From Jatrophihabitans sp. (GTDB lineage Bacteria > Actinomycetota > Actinomycetes > Mycobacteriales > Jatrophihabitantaceae): a stretch of 52,787 nt of DNA. Location of the stretch: positions 1-52,787 of the forward strand of contig DASWNX010000022.1 of NCBI GenBank assembly GCA_036399055.1, written 5' to 3'. Below, in pieces: positions 1 to 14,935 of this stretch (position 1 is its first letter; the number at the start of each line of letters is the position of its first letter). The notes beneath the pieces were generated by a model. That model worked only from the letters and a program-made list of their open reading frames with translations, made no database searches and was not told the origin of the DNA. The position numbers and the translations under genes were made by a program.

Positions 1-156
1 GACAACCTCACCCTGGTCTGCGGCTATCACCATCGTGAGTTCGACCGCGCCGGCTGGAGCTGTCAGATGACCGACGGCCACCCCCAGTGGATCCCGCCCG
101 CCTGGATCGACCCCACCCAAACACCCAGACGCAACCACCGCATCAACCGGCAATGA
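1..156 (+). CDS. HNH endonuclease (DUF222/13E12 type), C-terminal end only
   Basis: Frame 1 is open from the first base to TGA at 154-156 and gives 51 residues beginning DNLTLVCGYHHREF. This matches the last part of the HNH nuclease domain at the end of DUF222-containing proteins (REP13E12 family), which are multicopy in many actinomycetes. The CGYHH stretch contains the closing His of the HNH metal site, and the Pro/Arg-rich tail is typical of the family. The gene begins left of the window, so it cannot be said whether it is intact. A second diverged copy of this tail follows 21 bp downstream. The family is often described as a mobile or homing-like nuclease repeat; its role here is unknown. 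Confidence 0.75.
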   Translation, partial: DNLTLVCGYHHREFDRAGWSCQMTDGHPQWIPPAWIDPTQTPRRNHRINRQ

Positions 157-177
157 GGTAGGAGCACGGTCGACCTG

Positions 178-333
178 GACAACCTCACGCTGGTCTGCGG
201 CTATCACCACCGTGAGTTCGAACGCGCGGGCGGGACCTGCCAGATGACCGACGGCGACCCCCACCGGACCCCGCCCGCCTGGATCGAGCCCACCCGAACA
301 CCCAGACGCAGTCAGCGGTTGAGCCGGCAATGA
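178..333 (+). pseudogene. Second HNH endonuclease tail, remnant
   Basis: This stretch is colinear with 1-156 at a constant offset of 177 bp and also ends in TGA (331-333). The two 51-residue peptides share 38 identical positions by eye. Just upstream, 157-177 adds only a Val-Asp-Leu in frame, without a start codon or the rest of an HNH domain, so it is a broken copy. It may have come from a tandem duplication or from recombination between two different DUF222/HNH genes; the many conservative substitutions favour an old event. Confidence 0.7.
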
Positions 334-403: not shown

Positions 404-880
404 ATGCGAACACTTCTCATCCGGCCTTGGTACCGTTCGACGGTGGCCGAGAAGGATCCGTACCAGCTGCTGGGCGTGCCTCGTGACGCCTCCGATGAGC
501 GGATCCGTGCCGCCTACGAACTGGAGATCAACCGCGCCACCCGCGACGGCGCCATCCGCTACGCCGCCGAGCTGTCCGCCGCCTACGAGACCATCTCCAG
601 CTCGCAGCGGCGGGCGTTGTACGAGCGGCACGGATTCACCGCGATCAGCGAGCGAACGCCCGGAGCCTCGCGACCTCCCGGCCCTTGGCGGGCGACGGAG
701 CAGGGCGAGCCGGCCCGGCGCCGCACCCGCCGACGCGGGCTGAAGGTGACAGCGCTGCTGATAGTCGTGCTCGTCCTGGTCGCTGGATTGTTCCTCGCCA
801 CGCGAGACGCCGAAGCCGCGAGTCGGACAGCGCTGGTGAGCCAGCCGCCGGCGGCCGCCCAGCTCCTCACGCACCGCTAG
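404..880 (+). CDS. J-domain-like membrane protein lacking the HPD motif
   Basis: 158 aa. Residues about 18-77 match the J-domain pattern: YQLLGVPRDAS, helix RIRAAYELEI, then a helix ending RRALYERHG. The loop that should carry His-Pro-Asp reads INRATRDGAI, so it probably cannot stimulate the DnaK ATPase and is better called J-like. After a basic linker (RRRTRRRG) there is one membrane helix near residues 118-133 (ALLIVVLVLVAGLFLAT) and a short outer tail. This predicts a tail-anchored protein with its J-like part in the cytoplasm. The start is uncertain: ATG 404 or GTG 443, the latter just before the domain. It converges on the 2017-aa membrane-protein gene; a role in the same system is only a guess. 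Confidence 0.65.
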   Translation: MRTLLIRPWYRSTVAEKDPYQLLGVPRDASDERIRAAYELEINRATRDGAIRYAAELSAAYETISSSQRRALYERHGFTAISERTPGASRPPGPWRATEQGEPARRRTRRRGLKVTALLIVVLVLVAGLFLATRDAEAASRTALVSQPPAAAQLLTHR

Positions 881-996: not shown

Positions 997-3900
997 TCAG
1001 GGAACCGTCGCGATGGAGACGTTGACCGCCTGCGCGGTGGTCGAGGCGGTCACCGTGACGGTGACGGTGCCCGTCTGCGTGGTGGTGACCGCGGTGGCCC
1101 CCGAACCAGTGGTGGTCGTCTTCGTCGCGGTGACGTCGTAATCGCCCGGTGGCAGCTGGCTGAAATTGGCCAGACCCTTGTTGTCGCTGACGTCATCGGT
1201 CGGCGCGGTCACCAACGCATCAGCCGGCAACAGGCTGACGGTGGCCCCCTCCACCAGCGCGCCCCCGGTCCTCTGCTTGACCGTGATGGCCAGCGAGCCG
1301 CCCTTCTGGGTCAAGGAGACCTGCGCCGAGGTCGGCGTGCTCGAAGAGGCCGGCGTCACCGACTGGGTCGCCGTGGTCCAGCCCACCCCGTGACTGGTTC
1401 CCGGATTGGCTGTCAGCGTGTACGCCAGCGACGGGACGACCCAGATCGAGGAGACATTGCTGACGGTCGAGGTCGAGGTCGGGAAGGACGCCGCGGTGTA
1501 CAGCGTCGTCGTCCCCTGCTTGACCACCAGCGACACCGTCGCCGGCGCCGGGTTGGTGTCCAACGCCAATGGGGTGGCCAGCACCTTCAGATCCAGCTGG
1601 ACCTCGGCGATGGTGAAGCCGACCGAGGTGCTCACCCCGGAGCCGGCGCCCGACACCGTTATCGCATAAGGAGAAGTGGCGCTCACCTGGGTCGGGGAGC
1701 CACCGGTTGACATCACCTTGCCATGGTGATTGGCGGGCAACTCGATCCAGACCGTCCAACTTCCCGACGGCACCGAGTTGAACGTCGTGGTGTACGACGG
1801 CGCCGTGCCGGTCAGCGTCTGCGGCGCCTGCGGCGGGTTGCTGTTGAGCGGGCTGGCGGTCAGGTAGGCCTTGGCGCCGTCCACCGCATAGCCGTTGCTG
1901 GCGGTGAAGGTGACCACGACGTTGTTCTTCACCCGCTCCAGCGACGGGCTCAACGTGGGATTCTGCCCTGAGCTCACCGAGGTCGGGCTGTTCAGCGTGA
2001 GGTAGCCGGTCTTGGCGAACCGCACCACGTATGAGTCATCGGCCACCGGGCTGAACCCGAAGAACCCGGCGCCGGCGTCCCCACCGCTGGTCGTGGTCTT
2101 GACGACGCTGCTGTCGCTGATCCTGATCAGGCTGACGGTGACGCCGTCGAGGGGGCTGGCGACCTGGCTGGTGCCCTGCTCACCGGACACGATGCCCGAG
2201 ATGCTGCTCGTCCGGACATCGGTGCGCACGTAGATCGTCTGGTTGGCCACTCCGACGAACACGGTGAGTTGCACGTTCAGGGTGGCGATGTTCGGCCCGC
2301 TGATCTGCAAGGTGTACGTGGTCGGCACGATGGCGTTGAACTGGTAGAGGTTGCCGGTCCCCACCGTGGTCTGGGTGACCGCGGCCTGGCTGCCGTCGCT
2401 GGGCGTCAGGACCAGGGTCGCGTCGGTGACCAGGTCAGCGCTGGCGTTCGAGGCCGTGTCGGCGACGCCGACCTTGAGATTGACCTTGTTCGCGTTGAGC
2501 TTCAGCACTCGGGTGGAGTCGGTGGCACCGGTGCTGACCTGGAAGTACTCGCGTTGCTGGGCGGTGTAGCCCGTCGCGGACATGTCGACCACCCAACCGC
2601 CGGCGGCCAGGCCGTCCCGGGAGTTGGTCCCGGTGATCCGGAACTGGCCGTCGCTGTCGCTGATGGCGGTGAAACCGGTGGCTCCGGCTGTCGCCGGGCA
2701 GTGCGCCAGCGCCGTCGCGCTCGCGCCGCAGAAGGTCGCGGTGAGCAGCACGTTGCCCAGCGCCTGGGTGATGTCGGCGCCCAACACCGCCTGGGTGGCG
2801 CCGACGATCGATCCGCGGGCGTTGAGCGTGGCCACGCAGCTGGACTGGGCGCCGGCTGCGATGGAGATGCTGGTGGCGCCGTCGGCGCAGGTCACGGCGA
2901 TGTCGACGCCCGTGCTGCCGAAGGCGTGCCCGGCCGCCTGGATGCGCACCTTGTACGCCGCGCCAGGGGTGAGGCCGTTGAAAGTGACGCTGGCCGAGCC
3001 CGGCGGCGCGGTCTGGGTGACCGGCGTCGAGCCGCCGCCGGACAGGACGAAGATCGCGTTCGTCACAGCGCTGCCGCCGCTGTCGACCGGCGAGATCTCC
3101 AGGCTGCCGAGCTGGCGCAGCTCCATCGTCGGCACCACGCAGTCCACCCCCAGGGCACAGCTGAAGCTGACCGTGGCGCTGGCGTGACCAGGCAGGCTGG
3201 CGGTGAGCTGGTAGTTGCCCGGCCGGACCAGGCCGGCCTGCGGGTACTCCGAGTCCGTCCAGCTCAGCGCGCCGTCGGCGTCCACCGAGACGTCGACCAC
3301 GCCGGTCCCGGTCGCCTTGCGGTTGACGGTGATGTTGACATTCGAGCGGTTGACGCTCGCGTCCGCCGGGTTGATCGTCACCGCGCCCGAGATGGCCCGA
3401 GCGGTCGGCGCCAGGTTGACCGCGATCAGCGAGCCGGTGGTCACCGCCAGGCCGGTCACGTTGTAGGCGTTGAAATCGCTGGCGGCGATGCTGACATCGG
3501 CCTGGCCGACCACCAGCGCAAGCCGGGCCCGCGGGATGTCGGCGAAGTCCGTCGCGCAGGCGCCCATGCCCGAGGTCGGCGCGTTGCCGTCCGCGGTCAC
3601 CGCGAAGCAGCCGCGCGAGTCGGTGACCACGTTGACCTGCGCCCGGATCGGGGTCGTGCCGGAATAGGCGACCACCCCGCTGACCGTGACTGAGGCGTTG
3701 GCCAGGCCCTGGCTCGAACCGGTGTAGGAGCTGCTCACCCAGCCGATCAACTGCGGGATCGACTGGGTCATCGCCAGCTGGGTGTTGAGCTCCTGATCCT
3801 CACCCACCGGCACCGACATCGTGCCGCTGTTGGCGCCCTTGGACGCGGCCACGGTGTGCGAGCCGGGACCGAGCGCGACGATCCGCACCCGCCCGGCGAC

Positions 3901-6900
3901 GCCGGTCCGGATGAGCGGCTGGGCCGCCAGCGGCGCCGGCGTGACGGTGACGGTGACCGGATCGGTGGCGTTGACCAGCCCGCCGGACTCGTTGGGCGCC
4001 ACCACCGACAGCACCAGCCGGGCGAGCCGGTGCAGGTTGGCGTCATAGCGCCCCGTCGCGCCACGGTCCAGGATCACCTGCGCGCCCGGCACCGGGCGGT
4101 ACTCGGGGTTGAGCGGGTGGACGTAGACCAGGTAGGCGCCATGCGCCAAACCGCGCACGGTGTAGGAGCCGTTCGAGGTCGAGGTCAGCGAGCACTTGCC
4201 GACCGCCGGGACCGGCACGCAGGTCTGCACGCCGCCAGGGCTGCTCGGCGGCGCCAGGGCGCAGGTCGGCGGTGACGCCGGCGCCGGGCTGCTCGGCAGC
4301 ACCAGCACGCAGGTGCGGTAGTCGACCTGGTGGGCGTAGTCCTGTCCGGTGGGCACCGGCTCGTCCGGGTCGTCGACCTTGCTGAGGTCCGGGCCGGTGC
4401 TCAGGTTGCCCACCGTGGCGTTGACGGTTCCGACCACGGTGGCCGACGGGTACAGCGCCAGCTGCGGCGCCTCCACGGTGGCGCCGAGCGGAACCTGCAC
4501 GTCGACGGCGCCGCTCTCATACCCCGGCGCGCTGACCACGACGCGGTGCAGGCCGGGGAGCAGGCCGGTGATCGGAAGCAGGTCGATCGAGGGGACGGTG
4601 TACTCCTGGCTGGGGTCGACGCCGCAGACGATCAGCGGGTTGGCCGCCCCGCCCGGGGCGCAGGCGACCTCTACGGCGTGCTGGGAGACGTCGACCCCGA
4701 CGTTGATCTTGCACAGGTCCAGGTTGGCCTTGCTGCCCGGCGGCAGCAGCGGGTCGTAGTCATCGGCCTGGTCACAGCTGAGCGGGCCGCCGCTGCGCGC
4801 GTCGGTGATCCGGCCGCGCACGTGCGAGCTGGACGGCAGCACACCGCCCGGCGTCGGGTTCAGCCTCAGGGCCACCGAGGCCACCCCGCCGACCTTGGCG
4901 GTGACGGTGGCGTAACTGGTGGTGCGGCCGTAGAGCTCGGCGCCCAGCACGTAGGTGCCCGGCGCCACGCCGTTGAACCGGAACGAGCCCGGCGGGTTGG
5001 ACACGCTCATCGTCTTGTACGTGTTGGCCGGGCCGGTCAGCACCAGGCCGGCGCCGACCAGGCCCAGGCCGCCGGAGTCGCTGACGGTTCCGCCGACGAC
5101 CGCGGTGGCCGGCGTCAGCATCGCGTCGACCACAGCCCTGGACTGCCCGGCGGCCAGCTGGATCTGATGGGTCTGCGGCAGAAAGCCGGGCTCGGCGATG
5201 GTCACGCTGTACTTGCCGGGCGCCGGCAGCGCCGGCAGGGTGAACCGGCCGACCGGCCCGCTGGTGACGGTGGTGGCGGTGCGGGTGATGCTTCCGTCGG
5301 TCGCGGTGACGGTGGCGCCCCCGACACCGCTGCTGACGCCGAGGCTGTCCAGGCCCTGGACGGTGCCGACGAGCGATCCCATGCCCGACTTCAGGCCCAG
5401 GTCCAGCGCCTTGGACTGGCCCGCGGCCAGGGTGACCAGCGAGGACTCCAGGCTCAGGCCGTCCTTGCTGGCGCTGATCAGGAAGGCGCCCGGGGTGGAC
5501 AGCCCGGTGACCTTCCAGGCGCCGATGCTGCCGGAGGAGGTCGAGCTGGTGGCCACCACGTTCTGGCCGTCGCTGATCGTGATGGTCGCGCCGCCGACCG
5601 CGCCGGCCGGCCCGGTGATCCGGCCGGTCAGGCTGCCGTTGCCGGCGGTCATGGCCACCGGCAGCGGCTCGGTGGCGTCGGCGTCGGCGGCGTTGAGGAT
5701 GTACTGCCGGGTCTGGTAACCGGGCTTGGCGAAGGTGAGCAGGTAGTACCCGGGAGCGCTGATCCCGGCGAATGACCAGGCCCCGTTCTGCCGGGTCAGC
5801 GTGGACTGTTTGGCCGAGACCGCGCTCTGGGCCCGGGCTGTCAGCTGCGAGGCGGAGATCTTGCCGATCGCCCCGCGCCGGCTCTCGGTGACGGCCTTGG
5901 CCGACAGCCCGACCGGCTGGGCGCCCGCGGCCTTCTCATCCACCAGCGACGTCGGCTGCAGCGAGACCTTGACCCCGGCCGGCGCGGCGCCGGTGACGAT
6001 CCCGTTCAGCCGAACCCCCGCGGCCTGGGCGGTGGCGGGGACCGGTCCCGCCTTGGCCGGCCCCGGTTTGGCCGGCTTAGCGCCGCCCGAACCTCCGGAG
6101 CCCGACCCGCCGGAGCCCGACCCGCCGGAGCCCGACCCGCCCGAGCCCGACCCGCCCGAGCCCGGCCCGCCGGTGGCCGAGTCCGAGGGCTCAGCGGACT
6201 TCGAGCTTCCGGCCTGCTGAGTGGCCTGGTTGCCTCGGACCGACTTGGCCAGCATCGGGATCCCGGCTCCGGCCAGCGCCGCCCACAGCCCCAACACGGT
6301 CACGATGGCCAGCAGTTTCATGCCGAGCGGGCTGAACAACGGCCGTGACGTGAGGGCGCCGGTCACGCTGGTCGGAGCGCCCAAGCCGCGCGCCGCCACC
6401 AGGAACGGGTGCCGGGCCCGGCCGCCGAACATCCGCGGCCGGCTCAGGGTCAGCCGGCCCCGCACCCGGGCCGACCCGCCGGGCGGCACCTGCAGCCGAC
6501 GCCGGCTCAGCCGCAGGTGGGCGCCGTGGGACACCTCGGTCCTGAGCTCGACCCTGGCCGGGCTCTGGCCGGTGTTGCGCAGCAGCACCTCGATCCGGCG
6601 GCCGAAGACCGCCGTCGAGTCGGTGGGCGAGACCTCCATGCTCAGCCGGCTGGGCTCGTCGACGATCAGCGAGCCCTCGGCCATCGTGGTGGCGGTGACG
6701 CCGCTGAGATGGGGCGCGGACGAGCGCGCCGCCGCCGGGTCGCTGGCCTGCACGGCGACCACGAACGGGTAGCGGCCCGGCATGGTGCCCGAAGGCGGCC
6801 GCAGCGACAGCTCGACCACCCTGCTGGCGCCGGCCGCCACCGGGCCGACATGCAGCGGCGCCGGCAACCATGACGAGTCCAGGCCCAGCACTGACACGCT

Positions 6901-7050
6901 CAGCAGCCGCGGGCCCTGGGCGTGGTTCACCAGGCCCAGCTCGACCACCACGGTCTCGCCGGCGCCGGTCCGGCTGACGGCGTGCAGGTTCGCTGAGGGA
7001 GCTGGTTCCGGGGCCGGCATGCCACGGCCCTGCGAGGGTGGTCGGGTCAT
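997..7050 (-). CDS. Giant single-pass membrane protein with carboxypeptidase-regulatory-like repeats
   Basis: 2017 aa, last gene of the DUF4255 operon, starting 5 bp after the 886-aa gene. Residues about 20-235 look like two Ig-like beta-sandwich domains and there is no signal peptide. One membrane helix follows at about 244-266, preceded by TSRPLFSPLGMK. A GSGGS linker (about 293-323) leads to roughly 1,650 residues of beta-rich modules. Several are clear CarboxypepD_reg-like units (for example GSLTGRITGPAGAVGGATIT, then GAWKVTGLS); later ones are Cys-containing and more diverged. Predicted topology is N-inside with the repeats outside. No M14 peptidase catalytic domain is visible, so a name such as hydrolase would mislead. 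From its operon partners it probably serves an eCIS-type machine as a cell-surface or anchoring component; this is inference. Confidence 0.7.
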   Translation of the reverse strand: MTRPPSQGRGMPAPEPAPSANLHAVSRTGAGETVVVELGLVNHAQGPRLLSVSVLGLDSSWLPAPLHVGPVAAGASRVVELSLRPPSGTMPGRYPFVVAVQASDPAAARSSAPHLSGVTATTMAEGSLIVDEPSRLSMEVSPTDSTAVFGRRIEVLLRNTGQSPARVELRTEVSHGAHLRLSRRRLQVPPGGSARVRGRLTLSRPRMFGGRARHPFLVAARGLGAPTSVTGALTSRPLFSPLGMKLLAIVTVLGLWAALAGAGIPMLAKSVRGNQATQQAGSSKSAEPSDSATGGPGSGGSGSGGSGSGGSGSGGSGSGGSGGAKPAKPGPAKAGPVPATAQAAGVRLNGIVTGAAPAGVKVSLQPTSLVDEKAAGAQPVGLSAKAVTESRRGAIGKISASQLTARAQSAVSAKQSTLTRQNGAWSFAGISAPGYYLLTFAKPGYQTRQYILNAADADATEPLPVAMTAGNGSLTGRITGPAGAVGGATITISDGQNVVATSSTSSGSIGAWKVTGLSTPGAFLISASKDGLSLESSLVTLAAGQSKALDLGLKSGMGSLVGTVQGLDSLGVSSGVGGATVTATDGSITRTATTVTSGPVGRFTLPALPAPGKYSVTIAEPGFLPQTHQIQLAAGQSRAVVDAMLTPATAVVGGTVSDSGGLGLVGAGLVLTGPANTYKTMSVSNPPGSFRFNGVAPGTYVLGAELYGRTTSYATVTAKVGGVASVALRLNPTPGGVLPSSSHVRGRITDARSGGPLSCDQADDYDPLLPPGSKANLDLCKINVGVDVSQHAVEVACAPGGAANPLIVCGVDPSQEYTVPSIDLLPITGLLPGLHRVVVSAPGYESGAVDVQVPLGATVEAPQLALYPSATVVGTVNATVGNLSTGPDLSKVDDPDEPVPTGQDYAHQVDYRTCVLVLPSSPAPASPPTCALAPPSSPGGVQTCVPVPAVGKCSLTSTSNGSYTVRGLAHGAYLVYVHPLNPEYRPVPGAQVILDRGATGRYDANLHRLARLVLSVVAPNESGGLVNATDPVTVTVTPAPLAAQPLIRTGVAGRVRIVALGPGSHTVAASKGANSGTMSVPVGEDQELNTQLAMTQSIPQLIGWVSSSYTGSSQGLANASVTVSGVVAYSGTTPIRAQVNVVTDSRGCFAVTADGNAPTSGMGACATDFADIPRARLALVVGQADVSIAASDFNAYNVTGLAVTTGSLIAVNLAPTARAISGAVTINPADASVNRSNVNITVNRKATGTGVVDVSVDADGALSWTDSEYPQAGLVRPGNYQLTASLPGHASATVSFSCALGVDCVVPTMELRQLGSLEISPVDSGGSAVTNAIFVLSGGGSTPVTQTAPPGSASVTFNGLTPGAAYKVRIQAAGHAFGSTGVDIAVTCADGATSISIAAGAQSSCVATLNARGSIVGATQAVLGADITQALGNVLLTATFCGASATALAHCPATAGATGFTAISDSDGQFRITGTNSRDGLAAGGWVVDMSATGYTAQQREYFQVSTGATDSTRVLKLNANKVNLKVGVADTASNASADLVTDATLVLTPSDGSQAAVTQTTVGTGNLYQFNAIVPTTYTLQISGPNIATLNVQLTVFVGVANQTIYVRTDVRTSSISGIVSGEQGTSQVASPLDGVTVSLIRISDSSVVKTTTSGGDAGAGFFGFSPVADDSYVVRFAKTGYLTLNSPTSVSSGQNPTLSPSLERVKNNVVVTFTASNGYAVDGAKAYLTASPLNSNPPQAPQTLTGTAPSYTTTFNSVPSGSWTVWIELPANHHGKVMSTGGSPTQVSATSPYAITVSGAGSGVSTSVGFTIAEVQLDLKVLATPLALDTNPAPATVSLVVKQGTTTLYTAASFPTSTSTVSNVSSIWVVPSLAYTLTANPGTSHGVGWTTATQSVTPASSSTPTSAQVSLTQKGGSLAITVKQRTGGALVEGATVSLLPADALVTAPTDDVSDNKGLANFSQLPPGDYDVTATKTTTTGSGATAVTTTQTGTVTVTVTASTTAQAVNVSIATVP
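6098..6172 (-). repeat. 15-bp tandem repeat, 5 units, GSGGS linker
   Basis: Five consecutive 15-bp units of the form GAGCCCGACCCGCCG (plus strand), the first three nearly perfect, code for the pentapeptide GSGGS in the linker just outside the membrane helix of the 2017-aa protein. Copy-number change by slippage would keep the frame and only alter linker length. Confidence 0.9.
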
Positions 7051-7055
7051 CTCAC

Positions 7056-9716
7056 TCAGCCGCCCGGGTTCGGGACGGTGATGTCGACTCTCAACTGCTC
7101 GCTGGCGTCGATCTCACGGGTGACCGAGCCCTGCGCCGCGGCCGAGGCGGTCGGCCGGGTCTCGATCACATAGCTCTGCGGGGCGTCGACGTCAGGTAGC
7201 ACGTAGCGTCCGGCGCTGTCGGTGGTGACAGTCCGGGTGATGACCGTCGGGTACTGGCTGGCGAGGTAGAGCTGCACCTGCCAGCCGGGCCGCGGCTGGC
7301 CGTTGGCGGTGGCCACCACTCCGCTGATCTGGGCCGGCGCGGCCAGCACCGGGTTGTAGACCCGGACTTCGCCGGCGCCGAGGGTGACGATGGTGGAGGT
7401 CGGGCTGGTGCCCCGCCGGTTCACGCTGAGCGTGTAGGTGCCCGGCGGCACGCCGCCGATCTCGAACTGGCCGAGCCGGTTGTCGGGCTTGCTGGCGCTG
7501 GTCACCGCGAAGCTCGAGGTGCCCGACACCAGGTTGATCTGCACCTCGCCGGTGGGCGCCGGCCTGGAGCCCTGGCCGGCGCCGCGCTGGGAGACCGTTC
7601 CCTGGACCACCGCGGTCGAGGACTGCATGCTGACGCCGATGCCCTCGGAGGTGATCCGCGCGCCCTGGGAGCCCGGGGTGATGGCGCCGGACTGGTCCAG
7701 CGACACCGACACGGTCTGGCCGGCCAGGTCCGCACGGGAGAAGGTCACCGTGTAGGTGCTGGGAATGCTCAGCCCGCCTACCGTCCAGCCGCCGACGTTG
7801 CCGGTGCTCTGGGTGACGGTCTGCACGGTCAGCGCGCCGTTGGTGACGGTGACGGTGACACCCTGGGCCGGGCTGCCGCTGGGCAGCTGGCTGACCTTGC
7901 CCGACAGGCTGCCGGCGGACTGGCCGAGGCTGACCGCGACCCCGCTGAGTTTCTGCCCCGCCGACAGCGCGATGGTCACGGTCTGGGACGCGTAACCCGG
8001 TTTGCTGACCACCAGGGTGAAGCTGGCCGGGGTCGGCAGGCTGAGCAGGGTGAAGCCGCCCACCCTGTCCTGGGTCAGCGAGACGGTCCGGGCGACCGTG
8101 CTCCCCGAGGTGGCGGTGACGGTGGCGCCGCCGAGGGCGCCGGTGGGCCCGTTCACCTGGCCGCTGATCAGGCCGTCGCCCTTGCGCAGCCGCAGCTGGA
8201 CCCCCTTGCGGTCCTCGCCGCCGCCGAGGTCGACCCGTTGCACGTCGTTGGCGTAGCCGGGCTTGACCACGACCAGGTCATAGACGCTGGGCGAGGGCAC
8301 GTCGGCGATGCTGAACTGGCCGTCCGAGCCGACCGGGACGGTCCGCACGATCGCCTGGGTGGTGCCCGGGGGCGTCGAGGCCGACGGCGCGCGCGCGGCG
8401 GCTCCGGCAGCGCTGGGCAATTCCAGGTACACCGACGCGGCCGAGACGTCCTCGCCTGTGACGGTTCCCGAGATGGTGGCCGGAACACCGCCGAGCCGGA
8501 CGTCCAGGCCCTGGCGGGCCTGCCCCGGTTGAACCGCGACGGTGCTGGCGTCGGCGTCGGTGGCCGCGCCCGGATACCAGAGCTGGACGAAGCCGGCGCC
8601 GCGAAAGCGCAGCTTGTAACTGCCTTCGGGCAGGTTGGGCAACGTGAAGGCGCCGGCCGGGCTGGTGGCGGTGGTGGCGATCGCGTTGGCCAGGTCGGCG
8701 GTGCTGAACGCCTCGACGGCGACGCCGGGCACCGGGGTTCCCGAGGTCAGCAGCCGGACGGTGCCCGACATCGTGGCGGTGCCGATGGCGCTGGAGACGG
8801 TGCGAGCCTGGGCGACCTGCAGCGCCAGGTCGCGGTCAGCGGCCGACTGGCCCACCAGCCTGGCCAGCGCGACGGTGATCACGATGGCGAACACGGTCAC
8901 CGCGGCCAGCAGGCCCAGCAGCGAGATCGGCCCGCGGGACAGCCAGGGGCGCTGCAGGAACGTCCCGGTGGCCAGCGGCGCGACGTCCGGTCTGGGGGCG
9001 GCCGGCGCGGGCGCCGCCGGCTTGCCGCGCTGGGAGTCCAGCAGCCGCCTGGCCAGGCGCGCCCTGCCAGGCGATGCCGGCTCCGCGCGCTCGTCCAGGT
9101 GTCGCTCGTCCAGGTGTCGCTCGTCCAGGTGCCGCTCGTCCAGGTGCACGGTGAAGACCCGCACCATGGGCGAGCCCATCAGCGGCCGCCGGGCCCGGGT
9201 GGTCAGCTCCACGATCCGGTGCTCGCCGGGCGCCAGCGCGATGGCCTCGGGCGCGAAGCCGAACCGCAGCTTGTCCTCGGCGTCCGCGCCGGCCAGCCGG
9301 CCGCTGACGGTGGTGTTGCCCTTGTTCTGGATCACCGCGCCGAACGAGGCTCGCCGGCCGCCGTAGACGGTGACCGGGTCCAGCTGCAGGTGCACCGCCG
9401 GGGCAGCCGGCACGTGCAGCTCGATCTCCTCGACGGCGTTGGCGTACGGCTGGGTCAGCTCGCGGACCTGGATCGCGATCCGCCGGTCGCCGGCCGCGAT
9501 GCCATCGGGGATGGTCACGTTGACGATCACGGTCTGGGAGGCGCCCGGGAACAGCGACAGCTGATCGGTCTCCAACCGCACCCAGCTGGGGTCAGCGCCC
9601 AGCACCCGCAGCGTGTACCCGCCGATCAGCTCGCCGGTGTTGGTGACCAGCACCGTGATCGGCAGCGTGCGGCCCGGTTCGATGACGCTGCCGCGTGGGG
9701 CGATGTCGACGCGCAT
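7056..9716 (-). CDS. Single-pass membrane protein with carboxypeptidase-regulatory-like repeats
   Basis: 886 aa, third gene of the operon; its ATG (9716) lies 1 bp beyond the stop of the 799-aa gene, so the two are probably translationally coupled. Residues about 1-105 and 106-190 form two Ig-like, NEW3/COG1470-type domains (VIEPGRTLPITVLVTNTGEL is typical). A four-copy HLDER pentapeptide run sits at 191-210. The juxtamembrane motif QRPWLSRG precedes one membrane helix at about 263-288. The outer part (about 310-886) contains six or more CarboxypepD_reg-like modules (MSGTVRLLTSGTPVPGVAVE; GDGLISGQVNGPTGALGGAT). Architecture and order match the flanking 799- and 2017-aa proteins, so the three are diverged paralogs. 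Function is unproven; membrane attachment or surface display for an eCIS-like particle is the contextual guess. Confidence 0.7.
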   Translation of the reverse strand: MRVDIAPRGSVIEPGRTLPITVLVTNTGELIGGYTLRVLGADPSWVRLETDQLSLFPGASQTVIVNVTIPDGIAAGDRRIAIQVRELTQPYANAVEEIELHVPAAPAVHLQLDPVTVYGGRRASFGAVIQNKGNTTVSGRLAGADAEDKLRFGFAPEAIALAPGEHRIVELTTRARRPLMGSPMVRVFTVHLDERHLDERHLDERHLDERAEPASPGRARLARRLLDSQRGKPAAPAPAAPRPDVAPLATGTFLQRPWLSRGPISLLGLLAAVTVFAIVITVALARLVGQSAADRDLALQVAQARTVSSAIGTATMSGTVRLLTSGTPVPGVAVEAFSTADLANAIATTATSPAGAFTLPNLPEGSYKLRFRGAGFVQLWYPGAATDADASTVAVQPGQARQGLDVRLGGVPATISGTVTGEDVSAASVYLELPSAAGAAARAPSASTPPGTTQAIVRTVPVGSDGQFSIADVPSPSVYDLVVVKPGYANDVQRVDLGGGEDRKGVQLRLRKGDGLISGQVNGPTGALGGATVTATSGSTVARTVSLTQDRVGGFTLLSLPTPASFTLVVSKPGYASQTVTIALSAGQKLSGVAVSLGQSAGSLSGKVSQLPSGSPAQGVTVTVTNGALTVQTVTQSTGNVGGWTVGGLSIPSTYTVTFSRADLAGQTVSVSLDQSGAITPGSQGARITSEGIGVSMQSSTAVVQGTVSQRGAGQGSRPAPTGEVQINLVSGTSSFAVTSASKPDNRLGQFEIGGVPPGTYTLSVNRRGTSPTSTIVTLGAGEVRVYNPVLAAPAQISGVVATANGQPRPGWQVQLYLASQYPTVITRTVTTDSAGRYVLPDVDAPQSYVIETRPTASAAAQGSVTREIDASEQLRVDITVPNPGG
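9091..9150 (-). repeat. 15-bp tandem repeat, 4 units, HLDER pentapeptide
   Basis: Four head-to-tail units of TCGTCCAGGTGTCGC (plus strand) at 9091-9105, 9106-9120, 9121-9135 and 9136-9150 differ at only a few bases. They encode four HLDER pentapeptides in the predicted cytoplasmic part of the 886-aa protein. Confidence 0.92.
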
Positions 9717-9717
9717 C

Positions 9718-12117
9718 TCAGCTGCCCGCCCCGAGCCGCAGGCTCTGCCGGACGGTGTCGCCGGCGGTGACCCTCAGCAGCGCGGTCTGCTGGCTGAAGC
9801 CGGGCATGCTGGCGGTCACGGTGTAGGCGCCCGGCGCCAGGTCGGTCAGCAGGTAGCCGCCGTCGGGAAGGCCGCCGCCGGCGCCGGTGGCCTGGGACTT
9901 CCAGCTCTGCTTGCCGTCGGTGGCGACCACGCTCGCCCCGGGCAGCGGGCTGCCGGCCGGGCCGGTGACCACGCCGGTGATCCGGCCCAGCGCCGTGGCC
10001 AGCACCGCCTGGATCCGTGGCGGGGCGCCTTCGGCGCTGAGCTCGATCGGCATCGTGGTCCCGGCGTAGCCGGGCAGGCTGAAGGTCAGGGTGTACGAGC
10101 CGGGCGCGGGCAGGGCGTTGAAGCTGAAGTAGCCGACCGCTCCGGTGGTCAGCGTGGTGGAGGACATCGTCGTCGGCGCCCCGCCCACCGTCACGCTCGC
10201 TCCGCCCAGGCCGTTGCCGGCCGAGTCGACGAGGGTGCCGCTGACGCTGCCGACGCCGGCGGCGAGTGAGACGTTCAAGCCCGACCGGCTCTGACCGGGG
10301 CCGAGTTGCACCACCGAGGTGTGGGCGCCGTAGCCGGAGGCGCTGAAGGTGATCACGTAGGTGCCCGGGGTGGGCAGCGCCGGGATCACGAAGCTGCCGA
10401 CGGTGCCGGTGGTGGGGGTGCCGATGGTGACGTCCTTGCCGTTCACCGTGGTGGTGATGGCGACTCCGCCCAGCGGCTGCCGGCCGTCGGTCACCACCCC
10501 GCCGATCTGGCCGTTGCCGACGCTGAGCCGGACGGTCGACTGGAACCGTTTCTGGCCGCCGGCGACGGCGGTCACCACGGTGGTCGCCTGGTAGTCGGGC
10601 GCGGTGAAGCTCAACTCGTAGATTCCGGGAGCGGGCAGGTTGCTCAGCTGGTACCTGCCGCCGGTCAAGGTGATGGTGCTGGCGACCGGCCTGGTGACCT
10701 TGCCGATCAGCGAGGTGGCCCGCACGGTCGCGGTCACCGGCGACAGGGTGTCACCTGCGTCGATGCTGCCCTGGATCGAGGCGGGCAGTCCGGTGATCAC
10801 GGCGTTGACACCGCCGGTCGCGGCTTCGGTGTCGGCGGTGACCGGCTTCGCGCCGGCCTGGGTGGGAGCGGCCGGGTACCACAGCGTCTTGTACCCGGTG
10901 GCGCTGAAGCGCAGCAGGTAGCGGGTCGGGAACAGCCCGGCGAGGGAGTACGTGCCGTCGGCCTGGCTGGCCGCCGAACTCGCGACCTGCAGGCCCTTGT
11001 CGGTGGTGCGCAGCGCCTCCACCAGGATGCGGCCGGCCGGCAGGTGGTTGCTTTTCGCCGTCACGGTGCCGGTGATCACCGCGCCCACCCCGGGTGGCAG
11101 CGGCCCGGTCTTGGGCAGCGCGCCGGCCGGGGCTGAGCCGTCGGTGACCGACGCGGCGTTGGCGATGCCGCCGCTCGGCGCGTCGGCGGCGGCGAAGAAC
11201 GAGGCCGGGGCCTGCTTGGTCATCGGCTCGCCCTTGAACGCCTGGCTCAGGCCGAGCAGGAACACCGAGGCCCACAGCCCGACGATCGTCAGCAGCACGA
11301 GCGCTGTCAGCAGGCCCCGGCTGAGCATCGGACGCTGCCGCAACCGGACCGCGGCGCTCTGCGTGACCGGCGCCAGCACGGCCGTCGGATCGGCGACCGC
11401 CGCCGCGTCGGCGGCTGCCCGGGCCGGGTCGGCCTCGGCGCGCAGCTCCTCCAGCCACAGGTCGTCCTCGTCGCGGCCGGTGTAACGCGCCGTCGGCCCG
11501 TCGAGGTCAGCGTCGGGCGCCGCGCCGGCGGCCACCCCGACTGCCTGCACGGTGAGGGTGCGGTCCAGTTCGGCGCCGGTGATCATCCGCGGCCCGCGCA
11601 CCCTGAGCACGCAGACCGCGACGGCGCCGGCCTCGATCCGCAGCCGCGGCGGGGTGAAAGAGGTGCTCACCGCGCGGTCGGCGTCCACCGCGGTGAGTGA
11701 GACGTCCAGCGCCACGTTGCCGGCGTTGGCCAGCTCGAGCACGAACCGGGCCTGCCGGCGGGCCCGAACGACCTGTGGCCGGCAGCTCATGGACAGCTCC
11801 GGCCGCGGCGCCACCAGCATGTCCAGGTCGAGGTAGGCCGAGGGCAGGCCGGCCCCGACCGAGGCGACCTCGATGGTGACGGCGTGCCGTCCGGCCGGAT
11901 AGCTGGTGGGCACGCCGACCGAGAGGGTGACCTGCCCGCTGGCGTCGGGGAACAGCGGCAGCAGCATCGGCTTGCTGGTCACGCCGGCCGCGGGCAAGCC
12001 GATGACCCGGGTGGTGACGCCGTCGATGATCGTGCTGGTGTTGCGGATGTCGAGCACCACCTCGGCGTTGCCGCCGGGGGAGATGTCGATGAGCCGGGTG
12101 TCTGCGGTGACGAGCAT
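9718..12117 (-). CDS. Single-pass membrane protein with carboxypeptidase-regulatory-like repeats
   Basis: 799 aa, second gene of the operon, starting 5 bp after the DUF4255 stop. Two Ig-like domains occupy about residues 1-105 and 106-195 (SPGGNAEVVLDIRNTSTIID). An acidic, Ala-rich linker (about 212-245) leads to the motif LRQRPMLSRG and a membrane helix at about 268-291. Outside are about five CarboxypepD_reg-like modules with the repeated pattern G-x-V-x-G-T-V, G-x-x-V-x-V, GYKTLWYPA and GSYTLTFSLPGY. There is no signal peptide, so the N-terminal beta-domains should stay in the cytoplasm. It has the shortest outer region of the three paralogs. As far as I recall, eCIS loci of Streptomyces also carry genes labelled hydrolytic protein beside DUF4255 and ATPase genes; this could not be checked here. 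Confidence 0.7.
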   Translation of the reverse strand: MLVTADTRLIDISPGGNAEVVLDIRNTSTIIDGVTTRVIGLPAAGVTSKPMLLPLFPDASGQVTLSVGVPTSYPAGRHAVTIEVASVGAGLPSAYLDLDMLVAPRPELSMSCRPQVVRARRQARFVLELANAGNVALDVSLTAVDADRAVSTSFTPPRLRIEAGAVAVCVLRVRGPRMITGAELDRTLTVQAVGVAAGAAPDADLDGPTARYTGRDEDDLWLEELRAEADPARAAADAAAVADPTAVLAPVTQSAAVRLRQRPMLSRGLLTALVLLTIVGLWASVFLLGLSQAFKGEPMTKQAPASFFAAADAPSGGIANAASVTDGSAPAGALPKTGPLPPGVGAVITGTVTAKSNHLPAGRILVEALRTTDKGLQVASSAASQADGTYSLAGLFPTRYLLRFSATGYKTLWYPAAPTQAGAKPVTADTEAATGGVNAVITGLPASIQGSIDAGDTLSPVTATVRATSLIGKVTRPVASTITLTGGRYQLSNLPAPGIYELSFTAPDYQATTVVTAVAGGQKRFQSTVRLSVGNGQIGGVVTDGRQPLGGVAITTTVNGKDVTIGTPTTGTVGSFVIPALPTPGTYVITFSASGYGAHTSVVQLGPGQSRSGLNVSLAAGVGSVSGTLVDSAGNGLGGASVTVGGAPTTMSSTTLTTGAVGYFSFNALPAPGSYTLTFSLPGYAGTTMPIELSAEGAPPRIQAVLATALGRITGVVTGPAGSPLPGASVVATDGKQSWKSQATGAGGGLPDGGYLLTDLAPGAYTVTASMPGFSQQTALLRVTAGDTVRQSLRLGAGS

Positions 12118-12122
12118 GGCGG

Positions 12123-12716
12123 TCAGGGCGCCCCGGCAGGCTGGGACCCGGCAAGCCGGGCCGGCATCGGCGCTGTGAGGGCCTGGATGCGTTGCACGGC
12201 CGGCGCCGCGTCCGCCCAGGCGCCGACGTCCAGGGCCGTGGTCAGCACGATCTCGAACGCCGCCCGCATCGAGCCCTCGATGGAGGCGAAGACGTCTTTG
12301 ACGCGTCCCGTATCGGCCGGCGCCAGCGCGATCTGCACGCTGGACAGCAGTCCGGGGGCGGTGAATTCCGATGGCAGCGCCTGATGGGTGAGAAAGCAGC
12401 CGAGCACGTCGCCGAGCAATTCGTGCTCGTCGCGGACGTTGCCGGCCCAGGCGCTGACCAGGTAGTTCAGCTCGATCATGGGCAGTGGCCCGCGCCGCTG
12501 GAGGCGGCCGTTGGCGTCGGCGCGCTCGGGCATCGGGCGGGGCGGCTGCGGGCTGCGCCCCACCCCGAACAGGAACATGCTGACGGTGATCCGGCTGAGC
12601 TGGGCAGACCAGCTTCGAGATGGCGGGTCGAAGGACACCTCACCCACCTGCTCGGGCAGCGGCAGCGCGGCTCGGACCAGCTTCTCCAGACCTTGTTCGA
12701 CGAGGGGGATCAGCAC
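12123..12716 (-). CDS. DUF4255 (Pvc16/Afp16-like) contractile-injection-system protein
   Basis: 197 aa from GTG 12716, chosen because GAGGGG sits about 8 nt upstream; the open frame extends to 12812 but those residues do not look like the family. The body matches DUF4255/Pvc16_N: an N-terminal helix (LIPLVEQGLEKLVRAALP), a strand SRITVSMFLFGV, the conserved PMIELNYLVSAWAGN, then DEHELLGDVLGCF. In phage-tail-like systems (PVC, Afp, MAC) this family is the tube or sheath terminator cap at the distal end of the particle. It is first in an operon with three membrane proteins and is divergent from the AAA+ ATPase gene, a combination specific to eCIS loci. No sheath or tube gene is nearby. Confidence 0.8.
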   Translation of the reverse strand: MLIPLVEQGLEKLVRAALPLPEQVGEVSFDPPSRSWSAQLSRITVSMFLFGVGRSPQPPRPMPERADANGRLQRRGPLPMIELNYLVSAWAGNVRDEHELLGDVLGCFLTHQALPSEFTAPGLLSSVQIALAPADTGRVKDVFASIEGSMRAAFEIVLTTALDVGAWADAAPAVQRIQALTAPMPARLAGSQPAGAP

Positions 12717-12961
12717 AGGTCCATCCCCTCGAGTGCGCGAAACAAAGACCGGCGAATGCCGCGTTTGTAGTGCCCCCGAGGACGTGGCAACCTGTATCAG
12801 CCTTGCACTCACGTCTGCCCGAAATCATAACGTCAAGTTCGCAAGTGTGCAGTCGCTGTTAGCAGTTGGTTATCGAGAACAGTGGCACGGGCGGGCTAAA
12901 CCACCCCGGATGGGCTGAAAACGTCAGCGGGAACGACCTGCAGTGCAGGAGGAGACACCCC
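12717..12961. promoter_or_regulatory. Divergent control region, DUF4255 operon / AAA+ ATPase
   Basis: This 245-bp gap between divergently read genes is the natural place for both promoters. It has an AT-richer core (about 12825-12875), but no -35/-10 pair clean enough to assign was found. A 13-bp palindrome CCTGCAGTGCAGG (12937-12949) overlaps the start of the ATPase Shine-Dalgarno AGGAGGAG (12947-12954). A hairpin there could lower ATPase translation. Confidence 0.5.
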
Positions 12962-14935
12962 ATGCGACAGCGAATGGCCGAGCTGGTCGACCGGATCGCG
13001 GTGGCCGGCCGGCGCCGGTCAGAGGCGGCCGGCGGCCAGCAGCCAGCCGGCGACCGGAGCGGCGCGAGCGCAGAGCTCGACTCGATCATCGCCGTGCTGC
13101 GTGCCGACTACGCCGCTGGTCCGGCCGAGAGCGAACAGGACGTCCTCACCGGCCTGAGCGAGGTGTTCGGCCTGGACCCGGTCGACGCCGGGCTGCTGAC
13201 GGTCGCCGCCGCCGCGGATCTCGACGCCAACCTGGGCATGGCTTTCGGGCTGCTGCGCGGGCTGAGCGCGCCGGCCCGGCCCAGCGTCGGGCTGGCCCTG
13301 GAGCTGTCCGGGATTCCCACGCTGGCGCCGGACGGGTTCGACCGGCTCGGCCCGGACGGTCCCCTGCGCCGGCACCGGCTGATCGAGGTGCTGGGCCCGG
13401 AGCCGTGGCTGGGGCGGCAGTTGCGCGCTCCGGATCCGGTGGTGTCCTTTCTCGCCGGTTCGGACCAGTCCGATCCGCCGGTCGCCGCCATGCTGAGCTT
13501 CCCGGTTCCGATCGAGCTGGCCGAGACCGCTGTGCTGTCGGCCGCGATCAGCAACGGCGTGCCGCTGGTGTGGGTCAGGTCGAGCGCCGCCGCGGCCGGC
13601 AACTCACTGGCCGCCAGCGCGTTCGCCGCCCTCGGGCTGCAGTGCCTGGCGGTGGATCTTCACCGGTGCCCGGCCGACACCGAGCTGCTCGCAGCGCTGG
13701 CCTCAGCCGCCCGAGAAGCCGGCCTGCGAGGGTGCGGCCTGGTGGTGACCGGCGCCGAGCTGCTCGGCGAACCGGCCAACGTGGCCGGCCTGGAGCTACT
13801 GGAGCGGGCTGCGGTGCCGGTCGTCGCGGTCGGCGCCCGGCCGTGGAATCCGAGCTGGGCGCGCCGGTTTCCGCTGGCGGTGGACGCCCGTCCGCTGGCG
13901 GTCACCGATCGCGCCGCGGTCTGGCACGCCGGGCTCGGTGACCTGGCCTCCTCCGATGACGAGCTGCGCCATGTCCTGCTCGGGCTGCGGCTGACCCCTG
14001 AGGAGGTTCTGGAGACCGCCAGGTACGCGCGGATGCTGGCCGATTCCCAGCAGCAGCCGCTGTCGGCCGCTCTGGTGCGCGAGGCGGCTCGCCGGGTCGG
14101 CGGCTCGGGCGGCGCCGGGGTGAACCGGATCGCGGCTTCGGCCCAGACCGGCGCGGGCCCGAGCTTTTCCGACCTGGTGCTGCCCGAGCACGCCCGGCAG
14201 TCGCTGAACCAGCTGGTCAGTTGGGCTCGGGTTCGCGACCAGGTCACCGCCCGCGGGCCGCTGCGCGCCAAGGGCAGCGGGATCGCGGCGCTGTTCACCG
14301 GAAGCCCCGGCACCGGAAAGACCCTGGCCGCCAACGTGATCGCCGAGGAGCTGTCCATCGACCTGTTCCAGGTCGACCTGTCCGCGATCGTGGACAAGTA
14401 CATCGGCGAGACCGAGAAGAACCTTGAGAAGGTGTTCCAGTCGGCTGAGGCGCTGGATGTGGTGCTCTTCTTCGACGAGGCCGACGCGCTGTTCGGCAGC
14501 CGGTCGGAGGTGCGTGACTCACGCGATCGCTACGCCAACCAGGAAGTCGCCTACCTGCTGCAACGGATGGAGCAGTTCGACGGCATCACCATCCTGGCGA
14601 CCAATCTGAGAGGCAACCTGGATCAGGCCTTCTCGCGTCGGATGAGCTTCATCGTGCACTTTCCCGATCCGGACGCCGCCACCCGGCGACGGCTGTGGCA
14701 GAGCCACCTCAAGCAGTTGCAGGCGCTGGATCCCCATGATCCGGTCGATCTCGACTTTCTGGCCGAATCGGTGGAACTGGCCGGCGGGGACATCCGCAAC
14801 ATCGTGCTGTCGGCGGCCTATGACGCGATCAGCGCTGACCAGCCGATAGGCATGCGCCACCTCGCCGTGGCGACGGTGGGTGAATACCGCAAGCTGGGCC
14901 GGCGGGTTCCCGAGCACGGCTTTCTCCCGGCTTGA
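12962..14935 (+). CDS. AAA+ ATPase of contractile injection system type (Pvc15/Afp15-like)
   Basis: 657 aa from ATG 12962, preceded by a strong AGGAGGAG 7 nt upstream. Residues 1-390 are a family-specific N-terminal region including a degenerate, P-loop-less ATPase-like fold. Residues about 405-640 are a classical AAA+ module: Walker A GSPGTGKT, Walker B VVLFFDEADALFG, sensor 1 TILATNL, arginine-finger region DQAFSRRMSF, and sensor 2/lid GGDIRN. Length and layout fit the ATPase encoded with nearly every eCIS (Pvc15/Afp15), thought to act in particle assembly or effector loading, though its exact role is debated. It faces away from the DUF4255 operon and is followed by a convergent gene, so it is probably monocistronic. 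No cargo gene was recognised next to it. Confidence 0.8.
   Translation: MRQRMAELVDRIAVAGRRRSEAAGGQQPAGDRSGASAELDSIIAVLRADYAAGPAESEQDVLTGLSEVFGLDPVDAGLLTVAAAADLDANLGMAFGLLRGLSAPARPSVGLALELSGIPTLAPDGFDRLGPDGPLRRHRLIEVLGPEPWLGRQLRAPDPVVSFLAGSDQSDPPVAAMLSFPVPIELAETAVLSAAISNGVPLVWVRSSAAAAGNSLAASAFAALGLQCLAVDLHRCPADTELLAALASAAREAGLRGCGLVVTGAELLGEPANVAGLELLERAAVPVVAVGARPWNPSWARRFPLAVDARPLAVTDRAAVWHAGLGDLASSDDELRHVLLGLRLTPEEVLETARYARMLADSQQQPLSAALVREAARRVGGSGGAGVNRIAASAQTGAGPSFSDLVLPEHARQSLNQLVSWARVRDQVTARGPLRAKGSGIAALFTGSPGTGKTLAANVIAEELSIDLFQVDLSAIVDKYIGETEKNLEKVFQSAEALDVVLFFDEADALFGSRSEVRDSRDRYANQEVAYLLQRMEQFDGITILATNLRGNLDQAFSRRMSFIVHFPDPDAATRRRLWQSHLKQLQALDPHDPVDLDFLAESVELAGGDIRNIVLSAAYDAISADQPIGMRHLAVATVGEYRKLGRRVPEHGFLPA

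Follow-up and report, generated by a model that had tools for sequence, protein, structure and literature searches.

What are a tail-terminator cap and an AAA+ ATPase of the eCIS type doing beside three large membrane proteins, with no particle gene in view? The stretch analysed (the window, 52,787 nucleotides of Jatrophihabitans sp.) is one entire contig, C22; its position 1 is merely where the contig stops and marks no biological boundary. The earlier note had left two options: the particle genes are to be found to the left of position 1, past a pair of HNH tails, or the set is a separated and possibly repurposed unit. The left part of the window is organised as follows:

1..156, forward strand: DUF222/HNH-type gene, of which only the 3' tail lies on the contig (152 bp match an end of contig C20 with 98.7% identity)
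166..333, forward strand: second HNH-type tail, a tandem copy 87% identical to the first
404..880, forward strand: DnaJ-domain protein, 158 aa (PF00226, 30 bits, cut-off 27.8)
997..7050, reverse strand: protein A, 2017 aa, a single transmembrane segment (TM, residues 246-264) followed by Ig-like repeats (PF13620, 6 stretches)
7056..9716, reverse strand: protein B, 886 aa, a paralog of C, TM 266-284 (PF13620, 6 stretches)
9718..12117, reverse strand: protein C, 799 aa, N-terminal beta-sandwich region, TM 264-282, Ig-like repeats (PF13620, 5 stretches)
12123..12812, reverse strand: DUF4255/Pvc16_N cap, the tail terminator (PF14065 (Pvc16_N), 82.2 bits, cut-off 27)
12866..14935, forward strand: AAA+ ATPase, eCIS type, Pvc15-like (PF00004, 98.5 bits; PF22977 (WHD), 39.3 bits)

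The earlier note had staked its reading on the DUF4255 and ATPase profiles, and both gave significant matches; the two genes are transcribed divergently, as it had described. The cap gene is present in a single copy genome-wide and has no family in either NCBIfam or PHROGs; orthologs of the ATPase adjoin the cap in relatives. At the left edge, the presumed HNH remnant proved to be two tandem C-terminal tails of the HNH type, which match the end of a complete 432-aa gene of contig C29 with amino acid identities of 80% (1..156) and 73% (166..333). The DnaJ-domain protein has an ortholog in the corresponding position (70%) in G014, the closest relative compared.

A genome-wide profile search for contractile sheath and gp19 tube, as the earlier note had proposed, located the particle genes on a different contig, C17, which carries the one real sheath match and both gp19 tube matches. 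A further sheath match on C40 (E 0.066) was too weak and was rejected as evidence. Beside the sheath and tubes, C17 encodes LysM (LysM/CIS_tube), VgrG-like, gp25, baseplate-J and Tail_P2_I genes. No particle gene was seen in the window by these genome-wide searches or by an ORF profile scan to 16435, in agreement with the earlier note. As is generally expected of a CIS or eCIS, the sheath, tube, baseplate and spike genes thus share one region of the genome (C17), and a Pvc16_N terminator and an AAA+ ATPase are both found, here in the window. We conclude, with a probability of roughly 0.85, that the window holds one end of a complete CIS locus of the Streptomyces type (class IId), the particle genes of which lie on C17. 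The host is a Jatrophihabitans-like actinobacterium, and its relatives carry both parts in a single locus. The apparent puzzle of a cap and ATPase without a particle is thereby removed.

The class assignment is based on the structural proteins, which appear closest to those of CIS-Sc (S. coelicolor, class IId, sco4242-sco4260) among solved structures. Cytoplasmic systems of that class have particles lying free in the cytoplasm, and their firing kills the producer. For four proteins the best solved match is in CIS-Sc: baseplate-J scores 529 bits, the sheath 458 bits, the cap 190 bits (by profile, against the 9gts chain) and the tube 44 bits. The two tubes, the LysM/CIS_tube, VgrG-like, gp25, baseplate-J and Tail_P2_I genes and the three single-TM proteins are likewise CIS-Sc-like. 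The DUF4255 cap and sheath families are also held in common with the extracellular PVC/AFP systems, but the matches are much weaker than those to CIS-Sc (Pvc2 196 versus 458 bits; Pvc16 40 versus 190 bits). Only the membrane-facing proteins look unusual in this locus. By analogy, the sheath, tubes, LysM/tube initiator, spike, baseplate and cap would assemble a cytoplasmic particle, and the ATPase may be needed for activity as opposed to assembly, as reported for S. coelicolor.

The option of particle genes to the left of position 1 is supported: C17, which carries them, ends in a cut DUF222/HNH gene, and in G014 the orthologs of C17 (reversed) and then C22 are contiguous on one contig, with 70-100% identity. 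Sheath and cap occur on one contig, 22.8-27.9 kb apart, in five relatives (G014, and at 23-26 kb the other four, G009, G016, G018 and G013), whereas here cap/ATPase and particle genes are on separate contigs, between which C20 may intervene. C17 and C22 each terminate within a DUF222/HNH gene, and their end pieces correspond to consecutive parts of one gene, approximately 276 bp apart on C29. Synteny and contig ends together thus point to a repeated-family DUF222/HNH gene between the two parts as the reason that they are found on different contigs. It follows that repeated HNH-family genes can break CIS loci in draft genomes.

Because whole-genome DNA searches with the HNH gene scored part of the first-look candidates (40 of 79 and 40 of 344), the 1500-base ends of all 46 contigs were compared. 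HNH pieces were found at 4 of the 92 ends: the start of C17, the start of C22 and both ends of C20 (119 kb). In G014 a single intact HNH gene stands between the two ends of C20, so that the remaining two, C17 and C22, pair with each other; C17-C22 is therefore the conserved join, and it is likely that nothing else lies between them in the source strain. Direct adjacency is made less certain by the presence of the same HNH gene at both C20 ends, and no sequence bridges C17 to C22. Joining the C20 ends to each other would create a 119-kb circle of core genes (gatB, ligA, rlmN, frr, smc, leuC, gltX, citramalate synthase and tRNA genes), a content that makes a plasmid unlikely. As these ends are neighbours in four relatives (G014, G009, G016 and G018), simple self-closure is impossible in a normal chromosome. 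C20 is thus either misjoined inside or located between C17 and C22.

The latter would mean that recombination between HNH copies placed C20 there, with the particle operon and cap module truly apart in this strain, some 120 kb from each other, yet one system. The restriction of HNH pieces to those four ends is consistent with such an arrangement, as are the end orientations, which permit the order C17-reversed, C20-reversed, C22; the core genes on C20 and the neighbouring of its ends in relatives argue the same way. Nevertheless, we consider it rather unlikely, since the conserved layout of G014 has C17 genes beside C22 genes and the C20 ends together, and an insertion is unneeded if C20 is misjoined internally. 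Against a single locus counts G012 (87% identical), where sheath and cap are also on different contigs, though in a draft of about 570 contigs.

The second option, a cap/ATPase/membrane set repurposed to work without a particle, could be weighed against other genomes. A peptide-pattern scan of genome contigs, using two patterns from the C-terminal, post-TM part, yielded 55 loci, none of them from Streptomyces. The 31 loci that match a generic repeat alone (L082-L112) were excluded from module counts, leaving 24 module loci; L079, which has the same isolate name as L077, was excluded from whole-genome searches. The tallies for A and B (23 and 24 of 24 loci) include paralog cross-matches overlying C; these (B in L062; A in L075 and L076) were not counted. 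In L066, which has C, B and A, the 10 kb or so upstream contain no cap, a point against the single-locus reading. A contractile sheath gene was found in 22 of the 23 genomes carrying the membrane-protein module. A repurposed unit would fit a window in which no particle gene was seen, and would fit L063, the one genome with no sheath match; that record, however, comprises 3.3 Mb, and the matched contig 10 kb. Set against it are the sheath, tubes and baseplate in the same genome, the sheath in nearly all carriers and the synteny of C17 and C22 genes in G014. A stand-alone module is rejected on the latter two grounds, and we regard a repurposed unit as very unlikely.

With the window assigned to a complete CIS locus, the question becomes what its membrane proteins contribute. 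The three large membrane proteins that had been noticed are real (799, 886 and 2017 aa), each with one strong hydrophobic 19-mer within residues 246-284 and with significant PF13620 (CarboxypepD_reg) stretches. Orthologs of A adjoin B in relatives, and B shares 28% identity with C over 710 columns (B alignment of 9 rows). NCBIfam holds no family for C and a weak one alone for B. C is conserved over its full length, with a mean column identity of 61% (10 rows) or 50% (20 rows). An AlphaFold model of C (mean pLDDT 81.9, pTM 0.37) was compared using Foldseek, which returned Ig-like proteins of adhesin, pilin, complement and ciliary origin; the query-normalised TM-scores are 0.19 or less among the 50 matches listed, and no specific relative of C can therefore be named. 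The predicted topology would place the N-terminal domain of A, B and C inside and the Ig-like repeats outside.

An N-terminal region and one TM are common to the trio and the Sco4256-4258/'hydrolytic protein' family, as judged from relatives encoded in Streptomyces plasmid CIS loci. C matches a protein of NZ_CP108387.1 (BLASTP 27% over 171 aa, E 1e-10; hhalign probability 98.6%), and the C and B alignments match an S. clavuligerus 'hydrolase' with hhalign probabilities of 98.2% and 98.6%. Sco4256 itself is absent from the sequence sets searched; we infer that the plasmid proteins are its orthologs from locus, layout and common product name. The C-terminal parts differ: those of the trio are unrelated repeats forming Ig-like ectodomains, whereas Sco4256-4258 have ricin-like or toxin/lectin-like ends.

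This relationship raises the possibility that A, B and C are toxic cargo, that is, CIS-associated effectors like Sco4256-4258. According to PMC10066040, deletion of sco4256-4258 leaves approximately 85% of particles empty and abolishes CIS-dependent death, and each protein lowered E. coli viability; tube-lumen loading and toxicity are known there for S. coelicolor only. Sco4256 was detected in three particle preparations (PMC10020575), but PMC6593405 lists it as a membrane glycoprotein. The full-length conservation of C also speaks against cargo, as does its C-terminal part, which resembles carboxypeptidase-regulatory and pilin/adhesin Ig-like domains and not enzymes. We give a cargo role slightly less than an even chance. 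In the mechanism that we propose, A, B and C would act at the membrane to which the baseplate may be docked, either as effectors associated with the CIS or as partners in the envelope.

The other membrane-facing protein is encoded with the particle genes, directly after the baseplate genes:

C17:6892-7602, reverse strand: zinc-ribbon tail-anchored protein, TM 213-231

CisA (Sco4242) likewise has its gene after the baseplate genes, and a Cys-rich stretch before the TM. The zinc-ribbon Pfam matches of the tail-anchored protein are below curated cut-offs, and in 20 of 21 matches no more than 0-7 residues separate the TM from the stop. In contrast to CisA, no ectodomain is present, and the profile match to a Streptomyces CisA-like protein covers a zinc ribbon of only 31 residues (78% probability); we have therefore not adopted the name CisA. 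The extracytoplasmic C-terminal domain of CisA is absent in all six synteny loci, and the Streptomyces CisA-like ectodomain was found in none of the 24 genomes searched, while the search matched both Streptomyces plasmid records (one being the source of the query). Two features are lineage-specific: the Ig-like repeat ectodomains and, in the place of CisA, a tail-anchored zinc-ribbon protein that is devoid of the CisA ectodomain. We found no earlier account of this variant in the literature searched (preprints, most subscription papers and supplements aside). The stress-sensing domain proposed for CisA is thus missing from the matches in a lineage with an otherwise retained locus, and whether firing depends on that domain could be studied in such natural variants.

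A possible role of the tail-anchored protein is to dock the baseplate on the membrane's inner face. A more far-reaching proposal is that many actinobacteria (Jatrophihabitans-like, Nocardioides, Cellulomonas, Jiangella, Georgenia, Sanguibacter and others) differ from Streptomyces in how the interface between CIS and membrane is constructed. The sensing ectodomain proposed for CisA would be gone and the zinc-ribbon docking protein would remain; the cap-adjacent trio, with its long outside Ig-like stalks, would sense and would form an envelope-spanning complex at which the cytoplasmic CIS docks and fires. Taken as a whole, this proposal is improbable.

Finally, most homolog alignments begin at around residue 33 of the cap and residues 29-37 of the ATPase, so the listed starts of both genes are probably too far upstream; the true starts are probably near 12716 for the cap and 12962 for the ATPase.

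The draft assembly of this genome comprises 46 contigs (4.53 Mb), and the window is the entire contig C22 (52787 bp). It carries the following genes of a contractile injection system (CIS):

997-7050, minus strand, protein A, 2017 aa
7056-9716, minus strand, protein B, 886 aa
9718-12117, minus strand, protein C, 799 aa
12123-12812, minus strand, cap protein (DUF4255/Pvc16_N), profile match
12866-14935, plus strand, AAA+ ATPase with WHD domain, profile match

The cap, ATPase and three large proteins described in the earlier note were borne out by matches to Pvc16_N, AAA+ with WHD, and CarboxypepD_reg, the latter with 5 or 6 significant stretches in each of A, B and C. The cap is the single Pvc16_N gene in the whole genome. 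One strong hydrophobic segment was found in each of A, B and C, within residues 246-284; B and C share 28% identity over 710 columns, and A matches portions of both. A model of C contains beta-sandwiches (1-196), a helix (267-295), a low-confidence linker (296-343) and then a string of beta repeats. Close relatives in named collections include Frankiales, Pseudonocardiales and Jatrophihabitans MAGs. Elsewhere in the window, two adjacent large ORFs of 983 and 862 aa (43993-46944 and 47183-49771, both minus strand) have very similar signal-peptide-like N-termini.

The genome search proposed in that note, using sheath and gp19 tube profiles, placed the sheath gene and the two gp19 tube genes on contig C17 (minus strand), at 17-20 kb from the left end. 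In the direction of C17:1 the operon goes on to encode a low-complexity protein of 1400 aa, CIS_tube+LysM, VgrG-like, gp25, baseplate-J and Tail_P2_I proteins, and a protein with weak zinc-ribbon matches. The low-complexity protein (L006:13162-17364, minus strand, on a fetched stretch of C17) is flanked by the second tube gene and the LysM gene and has no family in PHROGs; near the equivalent place, a Streptomyces plasmid locus encodes a protein of 1020 aa that has no Pfam family. A weak sheath-profile match on contig C40 (51772-52029, minus strand, E 0.066) was rejected as a second sheath, being probably due to chance.

C17:1-870 (minus strand) is the 5' portion of a DUF222 gene truncated by the contig end, and C22 begins within the tail of a DUF222-type gene. 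In the closest relative compared, G014, a single contig carries sheath (96%) and tube (100%), on to UPF0029 (83%) and the ortholog of C17:2963-3544 (81%), followed after ~0.6 kb by the DnaJ-like gene of C22 (70%), A (87%), B (88%), C (90%) and the ATPase (93%); G014 also carries the cap. This order reads as C17 reversed, then C22. Sheath and cap share a contig at a distance of 22.8 to 26.1 kb in four further relatives (G009, G016, G018 and G013) and 27.9 kb in G014, and lie on separate contigs in G012 (ATPase 87%), a draft of about 570 contigs. One of the two options in the earlier note put particle genes beyond the HNH tails left of position 1; sheath, tube and baseplate genes are on C17, and their G014 counterparts are contiguous with those of the C22 genes. 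Judged from sequence, the window locus is an ordinary class IId-type CIS, split in the assembly at a repeated HNH-family gene. Spacer homology with G014 ends at C17:2934 and C22:386, the window's strain having extra DNA at the break, which on the C17 side contains a lower-GC stretch (0.50-0.58). This stretch (L119:901-2900, C17) adjoins the truncated HNH gene and includes a 549-aa ORF (1097-2746, plus strand); none of it occurs at the G014 place.

From each of the 46 contigs, both 1500-base ends (92 in all) were compared with an intact 432-aa HNH-family gene of contig C29. HNH pieces occur at four ends, the 5' part at the starts of C17 and C20 and the tail at the start of C22 and the end of C20. 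C20 (118,856 bp) carries three tRNAs and the core genes citramalate synthase, gatB, ligA, rlmN, frr, smc, leuC and gltX. Self-closure would make it a circle of core genes, which implies either a misjoin within C20 or a moved segment. A C20 segment shifted by recombination between HNH copies, and now separating C17 from C22, would account for the HNH pieces at both C20 ends. However, in G014 the genes of the two C20 ends flank a single intact HNH gene (C39:69114-70436), and these end genes also adjoin in G009, G016 and G018, so that the conserved arrangement pairs the two ends of C20 with each other and C17 with C22. We favour, at about four to one, a misjoin inside C20 with the C17-C22 pairing kept, and regard the moved segment as the less likely explanation. 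C20 (L143-L148) has the look of a circular permutation, since its two ends adjoin in four relatives; at about 27-29 kb, close to ligA/rlmN, it may be misjoined or a segment may have moved.

The closest solved structures for the sheath, baseplate-J, tube and cap, by sequence and profile matches, are those of the Streptomyces coelicolor CIS, whose baseplate is reported as 9GTP and whose cap as 9GTS, with 8BKY and 8BL4 the earlier models of this system (PMC12237407, PMC10066040). The sheath scored 458 bits with 8bky and 450 with 8bl4, ahead of 350 with 9ezm and 196 with Pvc2. At the limits used, baseplate-J matched 9gtp only (529 bits) and the tube 8bl4/9gtp/9gts only (44 bits). The cap matched 9gts with 51 bits by sequence and 190 by profile, compared with 40 by profile for Pvc16. 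Streptomyces plasmid loci reached via the ATPase have a gene set similar to that of the CIS locus here.

The three S. coelicolor proteins Sco4256-4258 are reported as CIS-associated single-TM effectors with similar N-termini, whose triple deletion leaves about 85% of particles looking empty and abolishes CIS-dependent death (PMC10066040). In descriptions of Sco4256 homologs, the first domain is chaperone-like and is followed by a TM, and about a third end in a toxin- or lectin-like part (PMC10020575). Similarity over the N-terminal region and TM links window protein C to a Streptomyces plasmid 'hydrolytic protein' (BLASTP 1e-10, hhalign 98.6%), and the alignments of C and B to an S. clavuligerus 'hydrolase' (hhalign 98.2% and 98.6%, respectively). 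We infer that these 'hydrolytic protein' and 'hydrolase' entries are orthologs of Sco4256; A, B and C differ from the Sco4256-4258 family by their long Ig-like ends.

CisA (Sco4242) of S. coelicolor is encoded after the baseplate genes, is required for contraction in cells, and runs from a cytoplasmic N-terminus through a TM to an outside domain, which is proposed as a stress sensor (PMC12237407), with a possibly Zn-binding Cys-rich stretch ahead of the TM (PMC10020575). At this position C17 encodes:

L006:6892-7602 (C17), minus strand, protein at the CisA position, its CxxC motifs paired and its TM at the extreme C-terminus, without outside domain (also at loci L120-L138 and L140)

In all six synteny loci the protein has four CxxC motifs, a linker rich in proline and, close to the stop, a TM. 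A profile gave 21 matches in 20 of 23 genomes, and the hydrophobic segment ends 0-7 residues ahead of the stop in 20 of the 21; L139 has no suitable ORF. The ectodomain of the CisA-like protein of NZ_CP108387.1 was found in 0/24 genomes and in both Streptomyces plasmid records searched, one its own source. The C17 protein is called CisA-like by position and Cys-rich/TM layout only; unlike CisA, it lacks the outside domain.

A scan with the C alignment, using one genome per species, gave 55 loci, comprising 24 actinobacterial loci with long matches (L058-L081) and 31 repeat-only matches. The cap adjoins C in 21 of the 24; the L075 and L081 sequences begin at C or just ahead of it, and L066 has no cap in about 10 kb of DNA upstream of C. 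An ATPase match lies inside the fetched stretch in 16/24. Within the window's family, cap and sheath occur in 16 and 15 of 24 genomes, respectively. The alternative of a separated, repurposed unit is not supported: a sheath gene is present in 22 of 23 module-carrying genomes searched, the exception (L063) being a 3.3 Mb record.

Gene content, order, homology and predicted segments are established for the CIS locus here, and its membrane interface is unusual and worth a note. The particle may be cytoplasmic and dock to the membrane via the tail-anchored CisA-position protein, with the A, B, C trio possibly acting at the docking membrane. Deletion of the S. coelicolor ATPase reportedly leaves particles looking normal, with cell death reduced as in other CIS mutants (PMC10020575). 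In the relative G016, caps, sheaths and ATPase matches each occur twice (contig C1, about 593-616 kb and 2075-2130 kb), which makes two CIS loci.
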